In this document: positions 8,594 through 15,282 of the stretch, piece by piece
Position numbering within the stretch: the stretch's first letter is position 1
How the letters are laid out: every line of letters starts with the position of its first letter
NCBI RefSeq assembly: GCF_902497555.1
Contig: NZ_CABVGP010000001.1
Span: 1,902,501-1,966,500, forward strand
DNA length: 64,000 nt
Direction: 5' to 3'
Source: Amycolatopsis camponoti
GTDB taxonomy: Bacteria; Actinomycetota; Actinomycetes; Mycobacteriales; Pseudonocardiaceae
Notes under the pieces: generated by a model
What the model saw: the letters and a program-made list of their open reading frames with translations, nothing else
What the model was told of the DNA's origin: nothing
The model's database searches: none
Translations under genes and position numbers: made by a program

Positions 8594-9049
8594 TCATCCG
8601 GCCGGCGTGACGACCGTGCGGCGGAAGTGGTTGAAGATCACCGACGTCCGCACGTCGACGATCTCCTTGCGCTGGGTCAGCCGGTCGAGGACGAACCCGC
8701 TCAGGTGGTCGTTGTCGGCGACCGCGATGTGCAGCAGGAAGTCGTCGCTGCCGGACATCACGAACACCGACAGCACCTCGGGCAGCCCCGCCACGAAGGC
8801 GCGGAACGACTCGATCACCGCGCGGTCGGGCGGGCGCAGCCGTACCGCCACCATCGCCTGCACGGGCCGGCCGATCTTCTTCAGGTCGACGTCGACGTGG
8901 TGCCCGCGCACGATCCCGCGCCGGGTCAGCTCCCGCACCCGTTCCAGGCACGTCGACTGCGCGATGTGCAGCTTGCGGGCCAGCTCCTTGTTGGTCTGCT
9001 TGGCGTCTTCCTGCAGCAGGGTCAGCAGCGCCGAATCCAGTTCGTCCAC
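8594..9049 (-). CDS. Lrp/AsnC family transcriptional regulator
   Basis: A 151-residue regulator with an N-terminal winged helix (DELDSALLTLLQEDAKQTNKELARKLHIAQSTCLERVRELTRRGIV) and a C-terminal RAM ligand-binding domain (VFVMSGSDDFLLHIAVADND). The GTG start at 9049 has GGAG about 10 bases upstream. It is divergent from the EamA transporter/DUF2000 pair across 110 bases, the usual layout where an Lrp protein controls an amino-acid exporter. An imperfect inverted repeat TTCGG...CCGAA (about 9083-9108) lies between them and may be part of its operator. Target and ligand are inferred from context. Confidence 0.88.
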   Translation of the reverse strand: MDELDSALLTLLQEDAKQTNKELARKLHIAQSTCLERVRELTRRGIVRGHHVDVDLKKIGRPVQAMVAVRLRPPDRAVIESFRAFVAGLPEVLSVFVMSGSDDFLLHIAVADNDHLSGFVLDRLTQRKEIVDVRTSVIFNHFRRTVVTPAG

Positions 9050-9159: not shown

Positions 9160-10008
9160 ATGATCACAGAAACGCGCGGCCTCTCGGTGGCCGCCGTCCT
9201 GGCCGCGGCGCTGATCTGGAGCAGCTCGTTCGCGGTCACCAAGGTGGCGCTGGCGGAGGTCCCCCCGATGACGCTCGGCGCGCTGCGGTTCGTCCTCGCG
9301 GCGCTCGTCCTCGGCGTCGCGGCGCGCCGGTTTCCCCGGCCGTCCACCCGGCAGCGCTTGTCCATCGGCGGCGCCGGCCTGCTCGGGATCACAGCGTACT
9401 TCGCGCTGGAGAACGCGGGCGTCGACCTGGCGACGGCGTCCGACGCGACGCTGATCGTCGCCGCCTACCCGATTATCACGCTGGCTTTGTCCGGCCGCGC
9501 CGCGTTCTCCCCGGTCCGGTTGGTGGGCATGCTGGTGGCGCTCGCCGGGGTCTGGCTGGTGGTCCGGGAGCACTCCGGCGGCGGCCACCGCCTGTGGGGC
9601 GACGTGCTGCTGGTCGCCGGCGGCGTCGCTTGGGCGGCCTACAACCTGGTCGCGCGCCGGGAGGGCTCGGGCGCGTCGCCGATCGTGGTGACGTACTACC
9701 AGACGCTGGCGGGCGCGGGCGGGTTCGTCCTGCTGTCGCTGACGGAGACTTCCCGGTGGACCGTCCCGTCCGGCGGAACGGTGCTGCGGATCGGTTTTCT
9801 CGCGGTGGTGTGCTCGGTGGCGGCTTTCCTGCTGTACAACCACGGACTCCGCGGGCTGGAGCCGAGCGTCGCGGTCAACCTGCTCAACATCGTCCCGGTG
9901 GCCGGGCTCGGCTGGGCGGTGGTGCTGGCGGGGGAGAGCGTGACGCCGTGGCAGCTGCTGGGTGGAGCCGTGGTGCTCGCCGGAGTTTTCGTCGGGAGCC
10001 GGAAGTGA
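9160..10008 (+). CDS. EamA/DMT superfamily transporter
   Basis: A 282-residue inner-membrane protein with about ten hydrophobic segments in two EamA repeats. The first (AAVLAAALIWSSSFAVTKVAL) has the typical WSSSF start; the second begins near residue 150 (WGDVLLVAGGVAWAAYNLVAR). Family members export amino acids or other metabolites. Its neighbours, an Lrp-type regulator upstream and a DUF2000 protein whose GTG overlaps its TGA (10005-10008), favour amino-acid export, but no substrate can be assigned from sequence. Confidence 0.87.
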   Translation: MITETRGLSVAAVLAAALIWSSSFAVTKVALAEVPPMTLGALRFVLAALVLGVAARRFPRPSTRQRLSIGGAGLLGITAYFALENAGVDLATASDATLIVAAYPIITLALSGRAAFSPVRLVGMLVALAGVWLVVREHSGGGHRLWGDVLLVAGGVAWAAYNLVARREGSGASPIVVTYYQTLAGAGGFVLLSLTETSRWTVPSGGTVLRIGFLAVVCSVAAFLLYNHGLRGLEPSVAVNLLNIVPVAGLGWAVVLAGESVTPWQLLGGAVVLAGVFVGSRK

Positions 10009-10483: not shown

Positions 10484-11563
10484 TCAGCGGCGCGCCCGCA
10501 CCGCCGAAGCCAGCTCGTCCAGCAGCGGCGCGGTGTCGTCCCACGCCATGCACGCGTCGGTGATCGACTGGCCGTACGTCAGCTTCTCCGGGTGGCCCAG
10601 GTCGAGGTCCTGCCGCCCGCCCGCCAGGAAGCTCTCCATCATCAGCCCGGTGATGCGCTCGCCGCCGCCGATGCGGGCGGCCAGCTCGCGGACCACCGCG
10701 GCCTGGCGGACGTGGTCCTTGCCGCTGTTGCCGTGGGAAGCGTCGATGATCACGCGCTCCGGCAGACCCGCCTTCGCCAGCCGCGCCAGGGTTTCGGTGA
10801 CGGTCGCGGTGTCGTAGTTGGGGCCGCCCGCGTGGCCGCGCAGGATCACGTGGCAGTCCGGGTTGCCCGACGTCGTCAGCAGCGCCGCCAGGCCGTCGGT
10901 GTTGATGCCCGGGAACACGTGGCTCGCCGCGGCCGCGCGGGTCGCGTCGACCGCCACCTGGACGTCGCCCTCGGTCGAGTTCTTGATGCCCACCGGCATC
11001 GACAGCGCGCTGCACAGCTGGCGGTGGACCTGGCTCGCCGCGGTCCGCGCGCCGATCGAGCCCCACGTCACGATGTCGGCGATGAACTGCGGCGTGATCG
11101 GGTCGAGGAACTCGCACCCGACCGGCAGACCGAGCTCGGAGACGTCGAGCAGCAGCTTGCGCGCCATCCGCAGACCCTTGTTGACGGCGAACGTGCCGTC
11201 GAGGTCCGGGTCGTTGATCAGGCCCTTCCAGCCCAGCGTGGTGCGCGGCTTCTCGAAGTACACGCGCATCACGACGTGGATGTCTTCGCGCAGTTCCTCG
11301 GCCTTCGCGGCGAGGCGGCGGGCGTAGTCGAGGGCGGCTTCGGGGTCGTGCACCGAGCACGGGCCGACGACCACGAGCAGCCGGTCGTCCCGGCCGTCGA
11401 GGATGTCGACCGTTTCGGCGCGGCCCTGTTTCACGACCTTGGCGACGGCGGGGCCGACGGGATGGTCTTCCCGGAGCATCGCGGGCGAAATGAGCGGACT
11501 GATCGACGTGGTGCGCGCGGCGTCGAGGTCACCGATGGTGGCGGGTCCGGCGGAGAGCGTCAT
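10484..11563 (-). CDS. aroF: 3-deoxy-7-phosphoheptulonate (DAHP) synthase, class I
   Basis: A 359-residue enzyme condensing phosphoenolpyruvate and erythrose 4-phosphate, the first step of the shikimate pathway. Motifs are of the AroF/G/H class: VVVGPCSVHDPEAALDYA, MRVYFEKPRTTLGWKGLINDP, CEFLDPITPQFIAD, WGSIGARTAASQVHR, GIKNSTEGDV and VIIDASHGNSGKDH. It differs from the class II enzyme of mycobacteria. Its ATG at 11563 has an AAGGA sequence about 11 bases upstream. The 150-base leader holds an aromatic-rich leader ORF (11649-11714) and a stable hairpin (11614-11639), so control by aromatic amino-acid supply is likely. Confidence 0.93.
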   Translation of the reverse strand: MTLSAGPATIGDLDAARTTSISPLISPAMLREDHPVGPAVAKVVKQGRAETVDILDGRDDRLLVVVGPCSVHDPEAALDYARRLAAKAEELREDIHVVMRVYFEKPRTTLGWKGLINDPDLDGTFAVNKGLRMARKLLLDVSELGLPVGCEFLDPITPQFIADIVTWGSIGARTAASQVHRQLCSALSMPVGIKNSTEGDVQVAVDATRAAAASHVFPGINTDGLAALLTTSGNPDCHVILRGHAGGPNYDTATVTETLARLAKAGLPERVIIDASHGNSGKDHVRQAAVVRELAARIGGGERITGLMMESFLAGGRQDLDLGHPEKLTYGQSITDACMAWDDTAPLLDELASAVRARR

Positions 11564-11613
11564 CGCGGGGGTGTTCCTTCCTGGTGGACACCGACCCGCG
11601 CGGGGGACCCTCG

Positions 11614-11639
11614 CCGAGCCGGTTCGAAATCCGGCTCGG
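11614..11639 (-). promoter_or_regulatory. Hairpin in the 5' leader of DAHP synthase
   Basis: A perfect 9-bp inverted repeat CCGAGCCGG (11614-11622)/CCGGCTCGG (11631-11639) with an 8-base loop lies between the leader-ORF stop and the aroF start. No U-run follows, so it may act on translation or on Rho rather than as an intrinsic terminator. Confidence 0.6.
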
Positions 11640-11648
11640 GGGTGGAGG

Positions 11649-11714
11649 TCAGCGCAGGTTCACGCCGCCGTGCCCACCCGGGGCCGGCTTCGTAAACCAG
11701 TAATAGCGCTGCAC
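11649..11714 (-). CDS. Aromatic leader peptide upstream of DAHP synthase
   Basis: A 21-codon ORF: GTG at 11714, TGA at 11649-11651, reading (M)QRYYWFTKPAPGG then HGGVNLR. Codons 4-7 are TAT TAC TGG TTT: Tyr-Tyr-Trp-Phe, all three end-products of the shikimate pathway in a row, and TAT and TTT are rare in this genome. A -10 box (TAACTT) ends 6 bases before the GTG, so the peptide is probably the first thing on a leaderless transcript. A hairpin follows before aroF. The arrangement matches ribosome-mediated attenuation; a comparable leader ORF before aroF has been reported in Corynebacterium glutamicum (recalled). Confidence 0.75.
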   Translation of the reverse strand: MQRYYWFTKPAPGGHGGVNLR

Positions 11715-11720
11715 GCCGTC

Positions 11721-11726
11721 AAGTTA
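11721..11726 (-). promoter_or_regulatory. -10 box TAACTT for the leader peptide/aroF transcript
   Basis: On the minus strand TAACTT ends 6 bases before the leader-peptide GTG. No convincing -35 box is seen at 16-18 bases. Confidence 0.5.
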
Positions 11727-11849
11727 GCACACGCCGGAGCCGGACCGATTCTCCAGGTGGTACGGGCTGCACCGATCAAGACGTGAGCCGCTACTCTGGC
11801 GGACGACGAAATGTGACTGTCATCTCCAGAAAACAGACGGAGGCTTCTC

Positions 11850-12875
11850 ATGCGTGTCGGTGTGCTGACCGGCGGCGGCGACTGCCCGGGGCTCAACGCG
11901 GTCATCCGCGCGGTGGTGCGTAAGGGCATCGAGGTCCACGGCTGGGACCTCGTCGGCTTCCGCAACGGCTGGAACGGCCCGCTGACCGGGGACAGCCGGC
12001 CGCTCGGCCTCAACGACGTCGAAGACATCCTCACCCGCGGCGGCACCATCCTGCGGTCCTCGCGCACCAACCCGTACAAGGTCGAGGGTGGCGTCGAGAA
12101 GATCAAGCAGGTCCTGGCCGACCAGGGCGTCGACGCGCTGGTCGCGATCGGCGGCGAGGACACCCTCGGCGTCGCGAAGCGGCTCACCGACGACGGCGTC
12201 GGCGTCGTGGGCGTGCCCAAGACGATCGACAACGACCTGGGCGCCACCGACTACACCTTCGGCTTCGACACCGCGGTCTCCATCGCGACCGAGGCGATCG
12301 ACCGGCTGCACACCACCGCCGAGTCGCACCACCGCGCGCTGGTCGTCGAGGTCATGGGCCGCCACGCCGGCTGGATCGCGCTGCACTCCGGCCTCGCCGG
12401 CGGCGCGAGCGTGATCCTGGTGCCGGAGCGGCACTTCAACGTCGACCAGGTCGTTTCGTACGTCGAGAGCCGCTTCGAGAAGGAGTTCGCGCCGATCATC
12501 GTCGTCGCCGAGGGCGCGCTGCCCGAGGGCGGCGAGGAGCGGCTGCTCACCGGTGAGAAGGACGCCTTCGGGCACGTCCGCCTCGGCGGTATCGGCACCT
12601 GGCTGGCCGACGAGATCGCCCACCGCACCGGCAAGGAGTCCCGCGCTGTGGTCCTGGGCCACGTCCAGCGCGGCGGCACCCCGACGGCGTACGACCGCGT
12701 CCTCGCGACGCGCTTCGGCCTGCACGCGGTCGACGCCGTGGCCGACGGCGACTTCGGCGTGATGGTGGCGCTGAAGGGCACGGACATCGTCCGCGTCAAG
12801 CTGTCCGAGGCGACGGCCGAGCTGAAGACCGTCCCGGCCGAGCGCTACCAGGAAGCCGAAGTCTTCTTCGGCTGA
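11850..12875 (+). CDS. pfkA: 6-phosphofructokinase, PPi-type active-site signature
   Basis: A 341-residue glycolytic enzyme. It opens MRVGVLTGGGDCPGLNAVIRA, the nucleotide/pyrophosphate-side motif, and has PKTIDNDL with the catalytic Asp, MGRHAGWIALHSG, and LGHVQRGGTPTAYDR. Residue 104 is Asp (in GGEDT) and residue 124 is Lys (in PKTID). In ATP-dependent enzymes both are usually Gly, and Asp104/Lys124 mark PPi-dependent ones. A PPi-dependent enzyme is known from Amycolatopsis methanolica. The ATG has GGAGG 7 bases upstream. It is divergent from the aroF leader and ends at a strong hairpin. Confidence 0.92.
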   Translation: MRVGVLTGGGDCPGLNAVIRAVVRKGIEVHGWDLVGFRNGWNGPLTGDSRPLGLNDVEDILTRGGTILRSSRTNPYKVEGGVEKIKQVLADQGVDALVAIGGEDTLGVAKRLTDDGVGVVGVPKTIDNDLGATDYTFGFDTAVSIATEAIDRLHTTAESHHRALVVEVMGRHAGWIALHSGLAGGASVILVPERHFNVDQVVSYVESRFEKEFAPIIVVAEGALPEGGEERLLTGEKDAFGHVRLGGIGTWLADEIAHRTGKESRAVVLGHVQRGGTPTAYDRVLATRFGLHAVDAVADGDFGVMVALKGTDIVRVKLSEATAELKTVPAERYQEAEVFFG

Positions 12876-12925: not shown

Positions 12926-14362
12926 TCAGATCCGGGCGAGGGCGTCCAGGACGCCGGCCGCGGCGGCGATGTCGTCGGTGAGCGGCCGGTCGTCGACACT
13001 CGCGTCGAGGACCGCCGACGCCGCTTCGAACGCGTCCCGGACCGGGAGATCGACCAGGTCGGCGTCCCGCATCCGCAGCGCGCGGACCGCCGCGACCAGC
13101 TCGCAGCCCAGCACCTGCTGGTAGGCCGCGCACGCCGCCGTCGCCGCGCGGGCTGCCTGCGTCGAGAAGCTCGCGTGGTCCTCGAGGCCGCGGGAGACGA
13201 CCGCCGTGCCGAGCGTCGCCGGCAGGGCCGCCTGCCGCAGCTCGGTGAGCGCGTCGTGGGCGACGTACTCCAGGATCATCACGCCGGAGCTGCCCGCCGG
13301 GCCCGCCGCGAGGAACGGCCGCAGCCCGGTGAACTCCGGCTCGACCAGGTCGCCGAGCCGGGCCACCGACAGCTCCGCCACCTGGTGCACGGTCGCCCGG
13401 GCCTGGTCGAGCGCCGTCGACACGTACGCCGTGTGGAAGTGGGCGTGGTGGTAGGCGTCGCCGTGGACCGTCGAGATCATCGGGTTCTCGGTGCTGGCGT
13501 TGATCTCCACGGCGAGGACGTCGCGCAGGTAGTGGATCGCGTCGAGCGCGGGGCCCTGGACCTGCGGAAAAGCCCGCAGTCCGAAGGGATCCTGGATCCG
13601 CCGGCCCGGCTTCGGCGTCTGGTGCATGCCGAGCAGGCGCCGCATCTCCGCCGCGCACGCGACCTGCCCCGCGTGCGGCCGCGCTTCGTGCACCGGCGTC
13701 GCGTACGCCTCCGGGTTGCCGTCGAGCGCGACGTAGGTCAGCGCCGCGACGGCGTGGCTCGCCCGGGTCAGCGCGTCGAGCCGCATGGTCGCGAGGGTCG
13801 CTTCGGCGAGCGTCGCGGCGTTGCTGCTCATGAACGCCAGCGCGTCGCCGGCGTGCACCGGCACCGGCGGCACGTGCCCCTCGACCCACGCGCGTTCGCC
13901 GGTGAGCGCGAGCGCCGTCTCGGCCAGCGGCGCGAGGTCGCCGGTGCCGATCGCGCCCAGCCGGTGCACCAGCGGCAGCGCGCCGGCGCGGACCGCGTCG
14001 GCCAGCGCGCCGATCAGCTCGGGGCTGATCCCCGACCGGCCGGCCAGCAGCTGGTTGAGCCGGATCAGCATCATCGCGCGGACCTGGCCGGGCGGCATCG
14101 GGTCGCCGCTGCCGCCCGCGTGGCTGCGCAGCAGGCGGAGGCCGTGCTCCCGCGAGCTTTCGACGGTGTCGTCCTTGTTGGCCCCGACGCCGGTCGTCCG
14201 GCCGTAGACCCGCCGCCGGGTGCTGAGGTCCTCGGCGAGCTTCCACGCGTTCTCGGCGCCGCGCAGCGCGGCGATCGAGACGTCGATACCCAGCGGGCCC
14301 CCGGTGCGCGCCGCGGTCACCACGTCCGCGCACCGCAGGGTCCGGCCGTCGACCCGGATCAC
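12926..14362 (-). CDS. Aromatic amino acid lyase (HAL/PAL family) with atypical MIO triad
   Basis: A 478-residue member of the histidine/phenylalanine ammonia-lyase family. Catalytic Tyr53 lies in VYGRTTGVG; NQLLAGRSG, QDPFGLRAFPQVQG, EINASTENPMI and GLEDHASFS are recognisable family blocks. The Ala-Ser-Gly that cyclises to the MIO group is Gly139-Thr140-Gly141 (GAIGTGDLAPLA), and the usual Asn-Gly region reads FMSSNAATLAEA. Whether it forms MIO is therefore open. I start at GTG 14362 because GAAGGAGG lies 5 bases upstream; the longer form from 14389 would place that site inside the coding region. It stands alone, with no hut genes nearby. Confidence 0.85.
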   Translation of the reverse strand: MIRVDGRTLRCADVVTAARTGGPLGIDVSIAALRGAENAWKLAEDLSTRRRVYGRTTGVGANKDDTVESSREHGLRLLRSHAGGSGDPMPPGQVRAMMLIRLNQLLAGRSGISPELIGALADAVRAGALPLVHRLGAIGTGDLAPLAETALALTGERAWVEGHVPPVPVHAGDALAFMSSNAATLAEATLATMRLDALTRASHAVAALTYVALDGNPEAYATPVHEARPHAGQVACAAEMRRLLGMHQTPKPGRRIQDPFGLRAFPQVQGPALDAIHYLRDVLAVEINASTENPMISTVHGDAYHHAHFHTAYVSTALDQARATVHQVAELSVARLGDLVEPEFTGLRPFLAAGPAGSSGVMILEYVAHDALTELRQAALPATLGTAVVSRGLEDHASFSTQAARAATAACAAYQQVLGCELVAAVRALRMRDADLVDLPVRDAFEAASAVLDASVDDRPLTDDIAAAAGVLDALARI

Positions 14363-14396
14363 GGCAGCCTCCTTCCCGGCTGCCCTCACTATGCGG

Positions 14397-14879
14397 CTAG
14401 GACGCGGGTGGCTGCCAGGGCGGCATCGGCCAGTCCCAGTGCGGCACCGGTTCGTGCGGGTTCGGCTCGGCGCCGGGGGCGGAGAAGAGGACGGCCAGGC
14501 GGCTGCCCCACTCGAGGTAGCCCGCGAAGGCGGCGCGGAACTCGGGGTCGGCGGGCAGGCCGGCCTCGTCGGCGGCGTCGAGCAGCAGGTTCACCCATCG
14601 GCGGCGCTGCTCTTCGGTGATGCCACGGCCGAGGTGGCGGCCGACCATGTGGGCGTGGCCGCCGTGGTTCCCGGAGTAGGCGGCCGGGCCGCCGAAGACC
14701 TCGCCGAGCCAGACCGCGACGTGCTTCGGGTGGTCGGGGTCCATGCCGCGGAAGACGGGTTCGAGCAGCGGGTCTTCCAGGACGTGGCCGTAGAAGATCT
14801 CGAGCAGCTTCACGAGGGCTTCGTGGCCGCCGGCCCAGTCGTAGAGGGTCGGCGTCGGCGGGGTTTCTGGCACGATCAC
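14397..14879 (-). CDS. glbO: Truncated haemoglobin, group II (GlbO-like)
   Basis: A 160-residue globin. The body LLEIFYGHVLEDPLLEPVF, the proximal-His segment DPDHPKHVAVWLGEVFGGPAAYS, HMVGRHLGRGITEEQRRRWVNLL and EFRAAFAGYLEWGSRLAVLFS follow the group II pattern. Such proteins bind oxygen and nitric oxide and may detoxify reactive nitrogen or oxygen species in the cytosol. The start is uncertain: GTG 14879 or GTG 14873; longer versions would run into the divergent regulator. The C-terminal 25 residues are Pro/Trp-rich. It is divergent from an HxlR regulator with a direct repeat between them. Confidence 0.85.
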   Translation of the reverse strand: MIVPETPPTPTLYDWAGGHEALVKLLEIFYGHVLEDPLLEPVFRGMDPDHPKHVAVWLGEVFGGPAAYSGNHGGHAHMVGRHLGRGITEEQRRRWVNLLLDAADEAGLPADPEFRAAFAGYLEWGSRLAVLFSAPGAEPNPHEPVPHWDWPMPPWQPPAS

Positions 14880-14880
14880 C

Positions 14881-14919
14881 CGGTCAGGCAACCAGTGGTC
14901 GCCCCGGTCGGGCAACCAC
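14881..14919. promoter_or_regulatory. 24-bp-spaced direct repeat, candidate HxlR operator
   Basis: CGGTCAGGCAACCAG (14881-14895) and CGGTCGGGCAACCAC (14905-14919) differ at two of 15 positions and start 24 bases apart. They lie between the divergent globin and HxlR genes, where the regulator would bind. Confidence 0.55.
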
Positions 14920-14946
14920 GTACTTTCCGGTTCGTGGGGAGGGCGG

Positions 14947-15282
14947 ATGAAGCGGTACCACTGCGCGGTGGAGCTGGCGGTCGACCTGATCGGCGGCAAG
15001 TGGAAGCCGGTGATCCTCGCGCACCTGAAGGAGGGCGCGCACCGCTACGGCGAACTGCGGCGCCGGATGCCGGGGGTGAGCGAGAAGATGCTGACCCAGC
15101 AGCTGCGCGAGCTGGCGGCGGACGGGATCGTCCGCCGGGTCGAGTTCGACGGCCGGGTGCCGCACGTCGAGTACCACCTGACGGAGGTGGGGGAGGAGCT
15201 CCGCCCGGCGCTGACGGCGCTGTACGAGTGGGGTGAGCGCCGCGCGGCGGCCGCGGGCATCACGTTCGAGGCCCAGGCGTAA
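14947..15282 (+). CDS. HxlR family winged-helix regulator with N-terminal Cys
   Basis: A 111-residue DNA-binding protein: MKRYHCAVELAVDLIGGKWKPVILAHL opens the wing-helix, HRYGELRRRMPGVSEKMLTQQLREL is the recognition region, and HVEYHLTEVGEEL ends it. A single Cys at position 6 matches the redox Cys of YodB-type members, which sense quinones, diamide or reactive chlorine. It is therefore a candidate redox sensor. The divergent globin is the obvious target. The ATG at 14947 has GGGGAGGGCGG just upstream. Confidence 0.88.
   Translation: MKRYHCAVELAVDLIGGKWKPVILAHLKEGAHRYGELRRRMPGVSEKMLTQQLRELAADGIVRRVEFDGRVPHVEYHLTEVGEELRPALTALYEWGERRAAAAGITFEAQA

Follow-up and report, generated by a model that had tools for sequence, protein, structure and literature searches.

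A putative leaderless attenuator with an aromatic leader peptide upstream of the type-I DAHP synthase gene in Amycolatopsis camponoti and other Actinobacteria

We examined a 64,000-nucleotide stretch of the Amycolatopsis camponoti genome (contig NZ_CABVGP010000001.1, positions 1,902,501 to 1,966,500; hereafter the window). It contains a type-I DAHP synthase gene (aroF) on the minus strand, which is divergent from an adjoining phosphofructokinase gene (11850-12875, plus strand). An earlier note, made from the letters of this DNA, had described a 21-codon ORF with Tyr-Tyr-Trp-Phe at codons 4-7 in the intervening region (11714-11649, minus strand) and a TAACTT box 6 nt before its GTG; the former is exact to the base and the latter was confirmed. 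The parts of this region, all on the minus strand, are as follows.

11721..11726, minus strand: -10 element TAACTT of a presumed leaderless promoter, ending 6 nt before the GTG (from the sequence)
11649..11714, minus strand: leader ORF VQRYYWFTKPAPGGHGGVNLR, 21 codons, stop included (from the sequence and same-genus conservation)
11694..11705, minus strand: control codons TAT TAC TGG TTT (Tyr Tyr Trp Phe), codons 4-7 of the leader (from the sequence)
11673..11687, minus strand: segment A, codons 10-14, CCGGCCCCGGGTGGG, possibly pairing with B (from codon invariance)
11631..11645, minus strand: segment B, CCACCC followed by CCGAGCCGG, 5' arm of the 9-bp hairpin (from the sequence)
11639-11614, minus strand: hairpin B:C, CCGAGCCGG-ATTTCGAA-CCGGCTCGG, perfect 9-bp stem (from the sequence)
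11614..11622, minus strand: segment C, CCGGCTCGG, 3' arm of the 9-bp hairpin, with D as alternative partner (from the sequence)
11588..11597, minus strand: segment D, GGGTCGGTGT, pairing with C or with E
11575..11582, minus strand: Shine-Dalgarno sequence of aroF, AGGAAGGA (from the sequence; motif assigned by eye)
11564..11574, minus strand: segment E, ACACC and CCCGCG, immediately 5' of the aroF ATG; D:E encloses the Shine-Dalgarno sequence
10484..11563, minus strand: aroF, type-I DAHP synthase, 359 aa (TIGR00034, E 9.9e-144)

The leader ORF reads GTG CAG CGC TAT TAC TGG TTT ACG AAG CCG GCC CCG GGT GGG CAC GGC GGC GTG AAC CTG CGC TGA (11714-11649, minus strand), and no ribosome-binding site was seen for it. 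The perfect 9-bp hairpin between this ORF and aroF was likewise confirmed. The window has no U-run after this hairpin or after C:D, and a consensus scan of 11400-11900 found no terminator-like or sigma-70-like site. The hairpin claim can be extended: other helices are possible besides it, since the 3' arm could instead pair with a segment further downstream, and the Shine-Dalgarno sequence of aroF lies within yet another potential helix. Searched against Rfam 15, the whole window gave no match at the gathering score, and the region 11520-11760 gave one match only, at chance level (E 9.8).

The leader is present in the window and in all 30 same-genus loci (L081-L110), which were obtained from 30 of 36 same-genus genomes. 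It has exactly 21 codons in the window, L001, and 28 of L081-L110; among these 30 sequences, the codons at positions 10, 11, 13, and 14 never vary (CCG, GCC, GGT, and GGG). When 200 genomes of the order were searched with a profile built from 18 leader peptides, 34 matches reached E ≤ 0.001; 32 of these have a type-I DAHP synthase gene directly downstream, as do all of the 30 best matches, which were fetched with their flanks. The two remaining matches lie at a contig end (G214, L177) and at a place without a DAHP synthase gene nearby (G154, L181); the latter is taken as a chance match. The recurrence of the peptide, its promoter spacing, and its position in relatives indicates that the leader is more than a chance ORF.

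Among these 200 genomes, 93 have a type-I DAHP synthase match at E ≤ 1e-40, namely, 65 with a close enzyme (best E ≤ 1.5e-108) and 28 with divergent enzymes only (best E ≥ 1.3e-102). All 65 upstream regions of the close enzymes were read and the leader was found in 64, of which 62 were positive by a mechanical scan for the promoter box and a short aromatic ORF and two (L131 and L136) by eye; the sole region without a leader was that of G142 (L202). The leader was absent from all 17 upstream regions read for the 28 divergent copies, and also from nine of nine same-genus paralogue copies (L215, L217-L220, L238, and L240-L242). At the family level, a leader match at E ≤ 0.001 occurs in 56 of 160 genomes of the window's family. 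In a second family, the enzyme was found in 101 of 121 genomes and the leader in 20/20 upstream regions fetched, from 15 genera. The DAHP synthase matches of G070, G370, G374, G426, G435, and G464 each contain one in-frame stop (TGA; TAG in G464).

Hosts named in the first scan include Amycolatopsis, Rhodococcus, Nocardia, Pseudonocardia, Mycobacterium, and Streptomyces, as well as Micromonospora, Dietzia, Gordonia, Kribbella, and Isoptericola. The leader-finding rule required three aromatics in four codons, and six actinobacterial loci of that scan were negative by it (L012, L015, L025, L028, L032, and L056), although L025 and L015 have WYQRF and WYWRF frames 3' of the promoter box. The rule also missed L121, L131, and L136, which were recovered by the profile and by eye. 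Type-I DAHP synthase genes of Proteobacteria (L040, L057-L062, L065, and L076) have aromatic leaders, e.g., FYFWYYGFP and KFYFYFF, followed by a strong terminator. These look like classical attenuators; their hosts include Xanthomonas, Dyella, Cupriavidus, and, by eye, Leisingera.

In total, 120 distinct leaders were collected, including two spurious ones (L228 and L234) that have no promoter box, stand before divergent enzyme copies, and were left out of later leader counts. In 100 of the 120, a TAnnnT box precedes the chosen start codon by 6-7 nt, and in 102 by 5-9 nt, compared with a background of 1.9% for gaps of 5-9 nt. For 15 more leaders, the box is 12-19 nt from the chosen start, and each of the 15 has an earlier in-frame start 5-9 nt after the box. 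With these included, 117/120 leaders have the box 5-9 nt upstream of a usable start, and the other three have no box. The transcript in the window presumably begins at or next to the GTG, and leaderless placement seems to be a trait of the whole leader family, which is new here. Transcripts that begin with RTG and small upstream ORFs are described as common in mycobacteria (PMC4633059).

Conservation of the aromatic run had been named beforehand as a test. Tyr, Trp, and Phe occur together within seven codons in 116 of 118 leaders, and the run is kept in 30/30 same-genus loci. The leaders of L131 and L136 have no Trp; leaders with fewer aromatics are under-counted because the finding rule requires three aromatics in four codons. 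The earlier proposal that all three amino acids are sensed at once therefore holds for the sequence (116/118). As a statement on function it finds no such backing, as the C. glutamicum aroR leader is reported to be insensitive to Tyr limitation (PMC11802643, as far as consulted).

The choice of codons within the run is equally regular. Across the family, TAT encodes the first Tyr in 105/114 leaders and TTT the Phe that follows Trp in 111/117, whereas intermediate aromatic codons are TTC or TAC in 47/52. In all 30 of the 21-codon leaders, codon 4 is TAT and codon 7 is TTT, and in same-genus leaders the middle codon alternates between Phe and Tyr with a third base that is always C. The reference for codon usage consisted of the aroF genes of the loci and six genes of the window. 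Counted over the initial 300 codons of an alignment of 92 aroF genes, the ratio of TAT to TAC is 2:331 and that of TTT to TTC is 1:483; the corresponding ratios in the six window genes are 0:27 and 3:48. By this measure, the sensor retains rare wobble codons at defined positions. What is selected in TAT and TTT may be the speed of decoding or the nucleotides themselves, and the data are compatible with both. The profile also shows conservation of non-aromatic leader residues, with a peptide tail that differs between clades (SRPARGGSVGETVR vs. RQPARTPVTSP).

For comparison of RNA structures, the window's class was defined by the hairpin GAGCCGG..CCGGCTC or one pair shorter, which gave 90 distinct sequences from 99 loci. 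By a simple perfect-stem test, no terminator-like site was found in 97 of these 99 loci, and the same test found a terminator in 34 of the 79 leader-bearing loci of the other class, proteobacterial ones included. The two pairings downstream of the leader were compared in 77 of 81 sequences, after removal of L101 (incomplete sequence) and of L103, L139, and L151 (no D pattern). In the window, C:D forms 8/8 pairs (ACCGGCTC/GGGTCGGT), using the A at 11623. Across the class, segment C with its preceding loop bases forms a mean of 8.92 of 10 pairs with D, with the compensatory types AAG/CTT, AAA/TTT, AGA/TCT, and GGG/TCC. Tested against shuffles of the downstream sequence, C:D has a value of ≤ 0.05 in 57 of 81 cases, among them the window (0.045).

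The potential Shine-Dalgarno helix D:E, with which the covarying C:D helix would compete, has 11 bp in the window, where its D side uses CGCGGG (11600-11595) and GGTGT (11592-11588). It reaches at least 7 bp in 55 of the 77 sequences (71%), compared with 24% after shuffling. Its inner changes include GGTGT/ACACC, GGCTT/AAGCC, GGTTT/AAACC, and GGTCC/GGACC, and its outer arms CGGGA/TCCCG, CGGGG/CCCCG, CGTGGGT/ACCCACG, and CGCGGGTC/GACCCGCG. The other 22 sequences have less than 7 bp, and six of them only 0-3 bp (L141, L149, L163, L165, L178, and L182). As a further control we exchanged segments between sequences, which preserves composition but not relatedness: the three variable C:D pairs that lie outside the hairpin are formed 2.31 of 3 times as observed and 1.81 of 3 times after the exchange of C and D (sd 0.06, maximum 1.99 in 500), and D:E of at least 7 bp falls to 40% with D and E swapped. 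Taken sequence by sequence against shuffles, only 15 of 81 D:E helices reach 0.05, and the window's own value is 0.245. The minimum free energy fold of the window contains B:C and D:E together (z -3.1; 2/200 shuffles fold as well). The 9-bp hairpin is thus probably one part of a switch, contributing the arms B and C, of which C:D and D:E would be the other parts.

Pairing of the leader with segment B differs between the classes. In the other, mostly terminator-bearing class, A:B extends up to 15 bp, its mean score is reached by 1.1% of shuffles, and the non-aromatic leader residues vary in concert with segment B. In the window's class, A:B was rejected as a single uninterrupted helix, as it is not above shuffles (29% reach the observed value). 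U-runs are found soon after hairpin B:C in L253 (U7) and L249 (U4), which fits B:C as the OFF form.

Among mycobacterial-type leaders (L020, L026, L034, L042, L128, L140, and similar ones), a pair such as GGGCACC/GGTGCCC lies downstream of the leader, and GGTGCC could alternatively pair with GGCACC at the Shine-Dalgarno sequence, over 8-9 bp in L128 and L140. In 16 such leaders, shuffles reach the observed means of this relay to the Shine-Dalgarno sequence in 21-40%, so that a second, translational stage is suggestive only. In L003 and L007 (Rhodococcus and Nocardia), a copy of segment D occurs within the leader itself, in codons with GGGTCGGTC, which would allow a further helix of 11-12 bp with C.

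We consider it probable that the window carries a leaderless ribosome-mediated attenuator of the kind of C. glutamicum aroR, acting on translation initiation. Transcription would start at or next to the GTG, and a ribosome would load on the 5' end and read TAT-TAC-TGG-TTT. When Tyr-, Trp-, or Phe-tRNA is short, it would pause at codons 4-7 and leave segment A free; A would then hold B, C would pair with D, and the Shine-Dalgarno sequence would be open (ON). With all three aromatics plentiful, the ribosome would reach the stop codon and cover the first part of B, so that B:C forms and D is free to close with E over the Shine-Dalgarno sequence and the start codon (OFF). In this scheme, we infer the start site, the pausing, the existence of A:B in the window's clade, the succession of helices, and the direction of switching. 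The framework into which these steps are fitted comes from comparison, which supports the leader, its position, its promoter spacing, its codon choice, B:C, compensation in C:D, and D:E in 55/77. As sequence facts, the sensor, its conservation, and its leaderless placement are secure. The earlier note had left the output between translation and Rho, and it is the translational part that gains some comparative support from C:D and D:E.

The edge of a ribosome lies about 12 nt beyond the start of the A-site codon. With this edge, most of A stays accessible during a pause at codons 4-7, and a ribosome that has arrived at the stop codon masks CCACCC while GAGCCGG remains exposed. Equilibrium folding with the ribosome masked was carried out for 76 sequences (the 77 minus L130). 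Mean formation of B:C was 0.99 at the stop and 0.80 paused (lower when paused in 43/76), that of A:B 0 and 0.37, that of C:D 0 and 0.07 (higher when paused in 14), and that of D:E 0.56 and 0.46 (lower when paused in 34, higher in 8). Access to the Shine-Dalgarno sequence was unchanged under this folding (0.49 paused vs. 0.48 at the stop), being higher when paused in 14/76 and lower in 9/76. In the window, B:C stays at about 1.0 for three of the four pause sites and yields only for codon 4. The modeled helix shifts on pausing thus have the expected direction but are small, and these small shifts, together with the unchanged Shine-Dalgarno access, mean that the model would need co-transcriptional folding.

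The strongest competitor to translational control keeps the same sensor and follows classical trp logic, with C:D as a terminator or Rho-linked stop and B:C as the antiterminator: a paused ribosome would mask A, B:C would form, C:D would be blocked, and transcription would continue. The stricter conservation of C:D (8.92 of 10 pairs in 77 sequences) relative to D:E agrees with this arrangement, as do the U-run terminators in 34/79 other-class loci with related leaders, proteobacterial ones included, and the transcriptional attenuation reported for aroR (PMC11802643, as far as consulted). However, no U-run follows C:D in the window and 97/99 loci of its class have no terminator-like site by the perfect-stem test. 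Moreover, with a footprint of about 12 nt a pause at codons 4-7 leaves GGGTGGG free, and the U-run of L253 follows B:C, which is the opposite assignment. We regard this arrangement as unlikely.

Much less probable is a sensor based on the nascent peptide, in which a leader peptide with PAPGG would arrest the ribosome or act in trans and codon charging would be minor. Conservation does extend to non-aromatic residues; but it includes synonymous sites (codons 10, 11, 13, and 14, 30/30 in the genus), the residues concerned covary with segment B in the other class, and the tail diverges between clades (SRPARGGSVGETVR and RQPARTPVTSP). We give slightly less credit still to a leader that is translated merely to set basal ribosome delivery to aroF by reinitiation or standby, with no amino-acid response. 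Leaderless mRNAs and small upstream ORFs are indeed frequent in mycobacteria (PMC4633059, as far as consulted), yet an aromatic run with rare wobble codons that is kept across genera, and is absent from the paralogue copies examined, argues against it. As for a chance ORF in a GC-rich intergenic region, only the shortness of the leader speaks for it and the conservation refutes it, so that its probability is negligible.

Several known systems share parts of the translational attenuator proposed for the window. Classical trp and phe attenuators have control codons of the end product, alternative helices, and a terminator; the first two features are shared, but the window has no terminator and no leader ribosome-binding site, and combines three amino acids in one run. 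Translational attenuators of the erm type sense a drug and produce their output by hiding the main gene's Shine-Dalgarno sequence. Translational T-boxes are described as having the same output (PMC1262725). In both cases the input differs, as they sense tRNA or a drug and the window would be read through aromatic codons in a leader. Leaderless polycysteine uORF attenuators in mycobacteria were reportedly described by Canestrari et al. in 2020, and the leader peptide of ilvBNC in C. glutamicum is said to have no ribosome-binding site. The leaderless start is therefore less distinctive than had been suggested. The mycobacterial uORFs resemble the window in being leaderless with a run of the sensed residue, but concern another amino acid and other genes. 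For the mycobacterial cys leaders, the consulted part of the 2005 survey places the control codons near the stop codon, another difference from the window, and reports that no conserved terminator was seen (PMC1262725).

The closest likeness is to C. glutamicum aroR/aroF, where a short aromatic leader also lies directly before the DAHP synthase gene; that such a leader ORF is known there, as the earlier note had said, agrees with both sources available in part. Small-RNA work describes a leader with Phe-Tyr-Phe before aroF (PMC4046766). For aroR, transcription of the aroF operon is said to rise on Phe limitation through ribosome stalling, with Tyr having no effect (PMC11802643, on Neshat et al., 2014). 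The window differs in its Tyr-Tyr-Trp-Phe run, in the lack of a U-run terminator, and in a helix that would cover the Shine-Dalgarno sequence, and the aroR attenuator is described as transcriptional (PMC11802643), whereas our reading of the window is translational. Two relatives (L243, MRMWRFYFSKAPEAETS, and L244, MRNWRFYFEWGSGR; genomes of 2.4 and 2.7 Mb) carry WRFYF leaders, which share Phe-Tyr-Phe and seem to join the leader series. Through these two leaders, and with aroR known to us by description, the window's leader and the C. glutamicum aroR attenuator very probably belong to one family. The uORFC-13-1 motif before aroF in Acholeplasma is described as a uORF with a Phe codon, a ribosome-binding site, and an apparent terminator (PMC8632094). 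A Phe-containing uORF before DAHP synthase is the common feature; its own ribosome-binding site and apparent terminator set it apart, and it comes from another phylum with no sequence relation shown.

For Actinobacteria, Seliverstov et al. (2005) described RNA elements for Trp, Cys, and branched-chain genes and, in the part consulted, no conserved RNA structure before Phe or Tyr operons (PMC1262725). An aromatic leader is now seen to be widespread in the same phylum. In the literature as far as consulted, with Neshat et al. (2014) represented by a review, we found no account of this leader outside Corynebacterium. The aroF leader of C. glutamicum and leaderless attenuator uORFs were already known; new here are the breadth of the leader family, the leaderless start as its trait, the codon rule, and a clade without an intrinsic terminator.

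A wider proposal is more tentative, and we would not yet rely on it: the actinobacterial family may sense three amino acids from a leaderless start on behalf of the entire aromatic pathway, with the wobble-read codons TAT and TTT as setters of sensitivity at the first Tyr and last Phe, and its Pseudonocardiaceae/Rhodococcus/Nocardia branch may have swapped the intrinsic terminator for a relay of mutually exclusive helices (A:B, B:C, C:D, and D:E) that spans about 100 nt to the Shine-Dalgarno sequence. A likely change from terminator to Shine-Dalgarno control within one family, with the sensor kept, would provide natural variants for comparing the output stage. Tyr and Phe have single isoacceptors, so that one tRNA reads both codons of each. 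Position-fixed TAT and TTT would thus allow a direct test of whether codon choice sets attenuator sensitivity when one tRNA reads both. Such a single-tRNA case would not be explained by selective charging among isoacceptors, as that effect is described (PMC1183508, as far as consulted).

Entry of carbon into the synthesis of all aromatic amino acids, and of the aromatic antibiotics of actinomycetes, is set by DAHP synthase. An aromatic amino acid lyase gene (PF00221, E 2.3e-112; 12926-14389, minus strand) lies one gene from aroF, separated from it by the divergent phosphofructokinase gene, and a link between aromatic breakdown and synthesis is possible. The gene of an Lrp/AsnC-type regulator (8594-9049, minus strand) adjoins a divergent EamA-type transporter gene (9160-10008, plus strand), both assigned by Pfam. 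Finally, the ORF at 14397-14999 (minus strand, 200 aa) encodes a bacterial-globin-like protein, with Bac_globin over residues 51-150.
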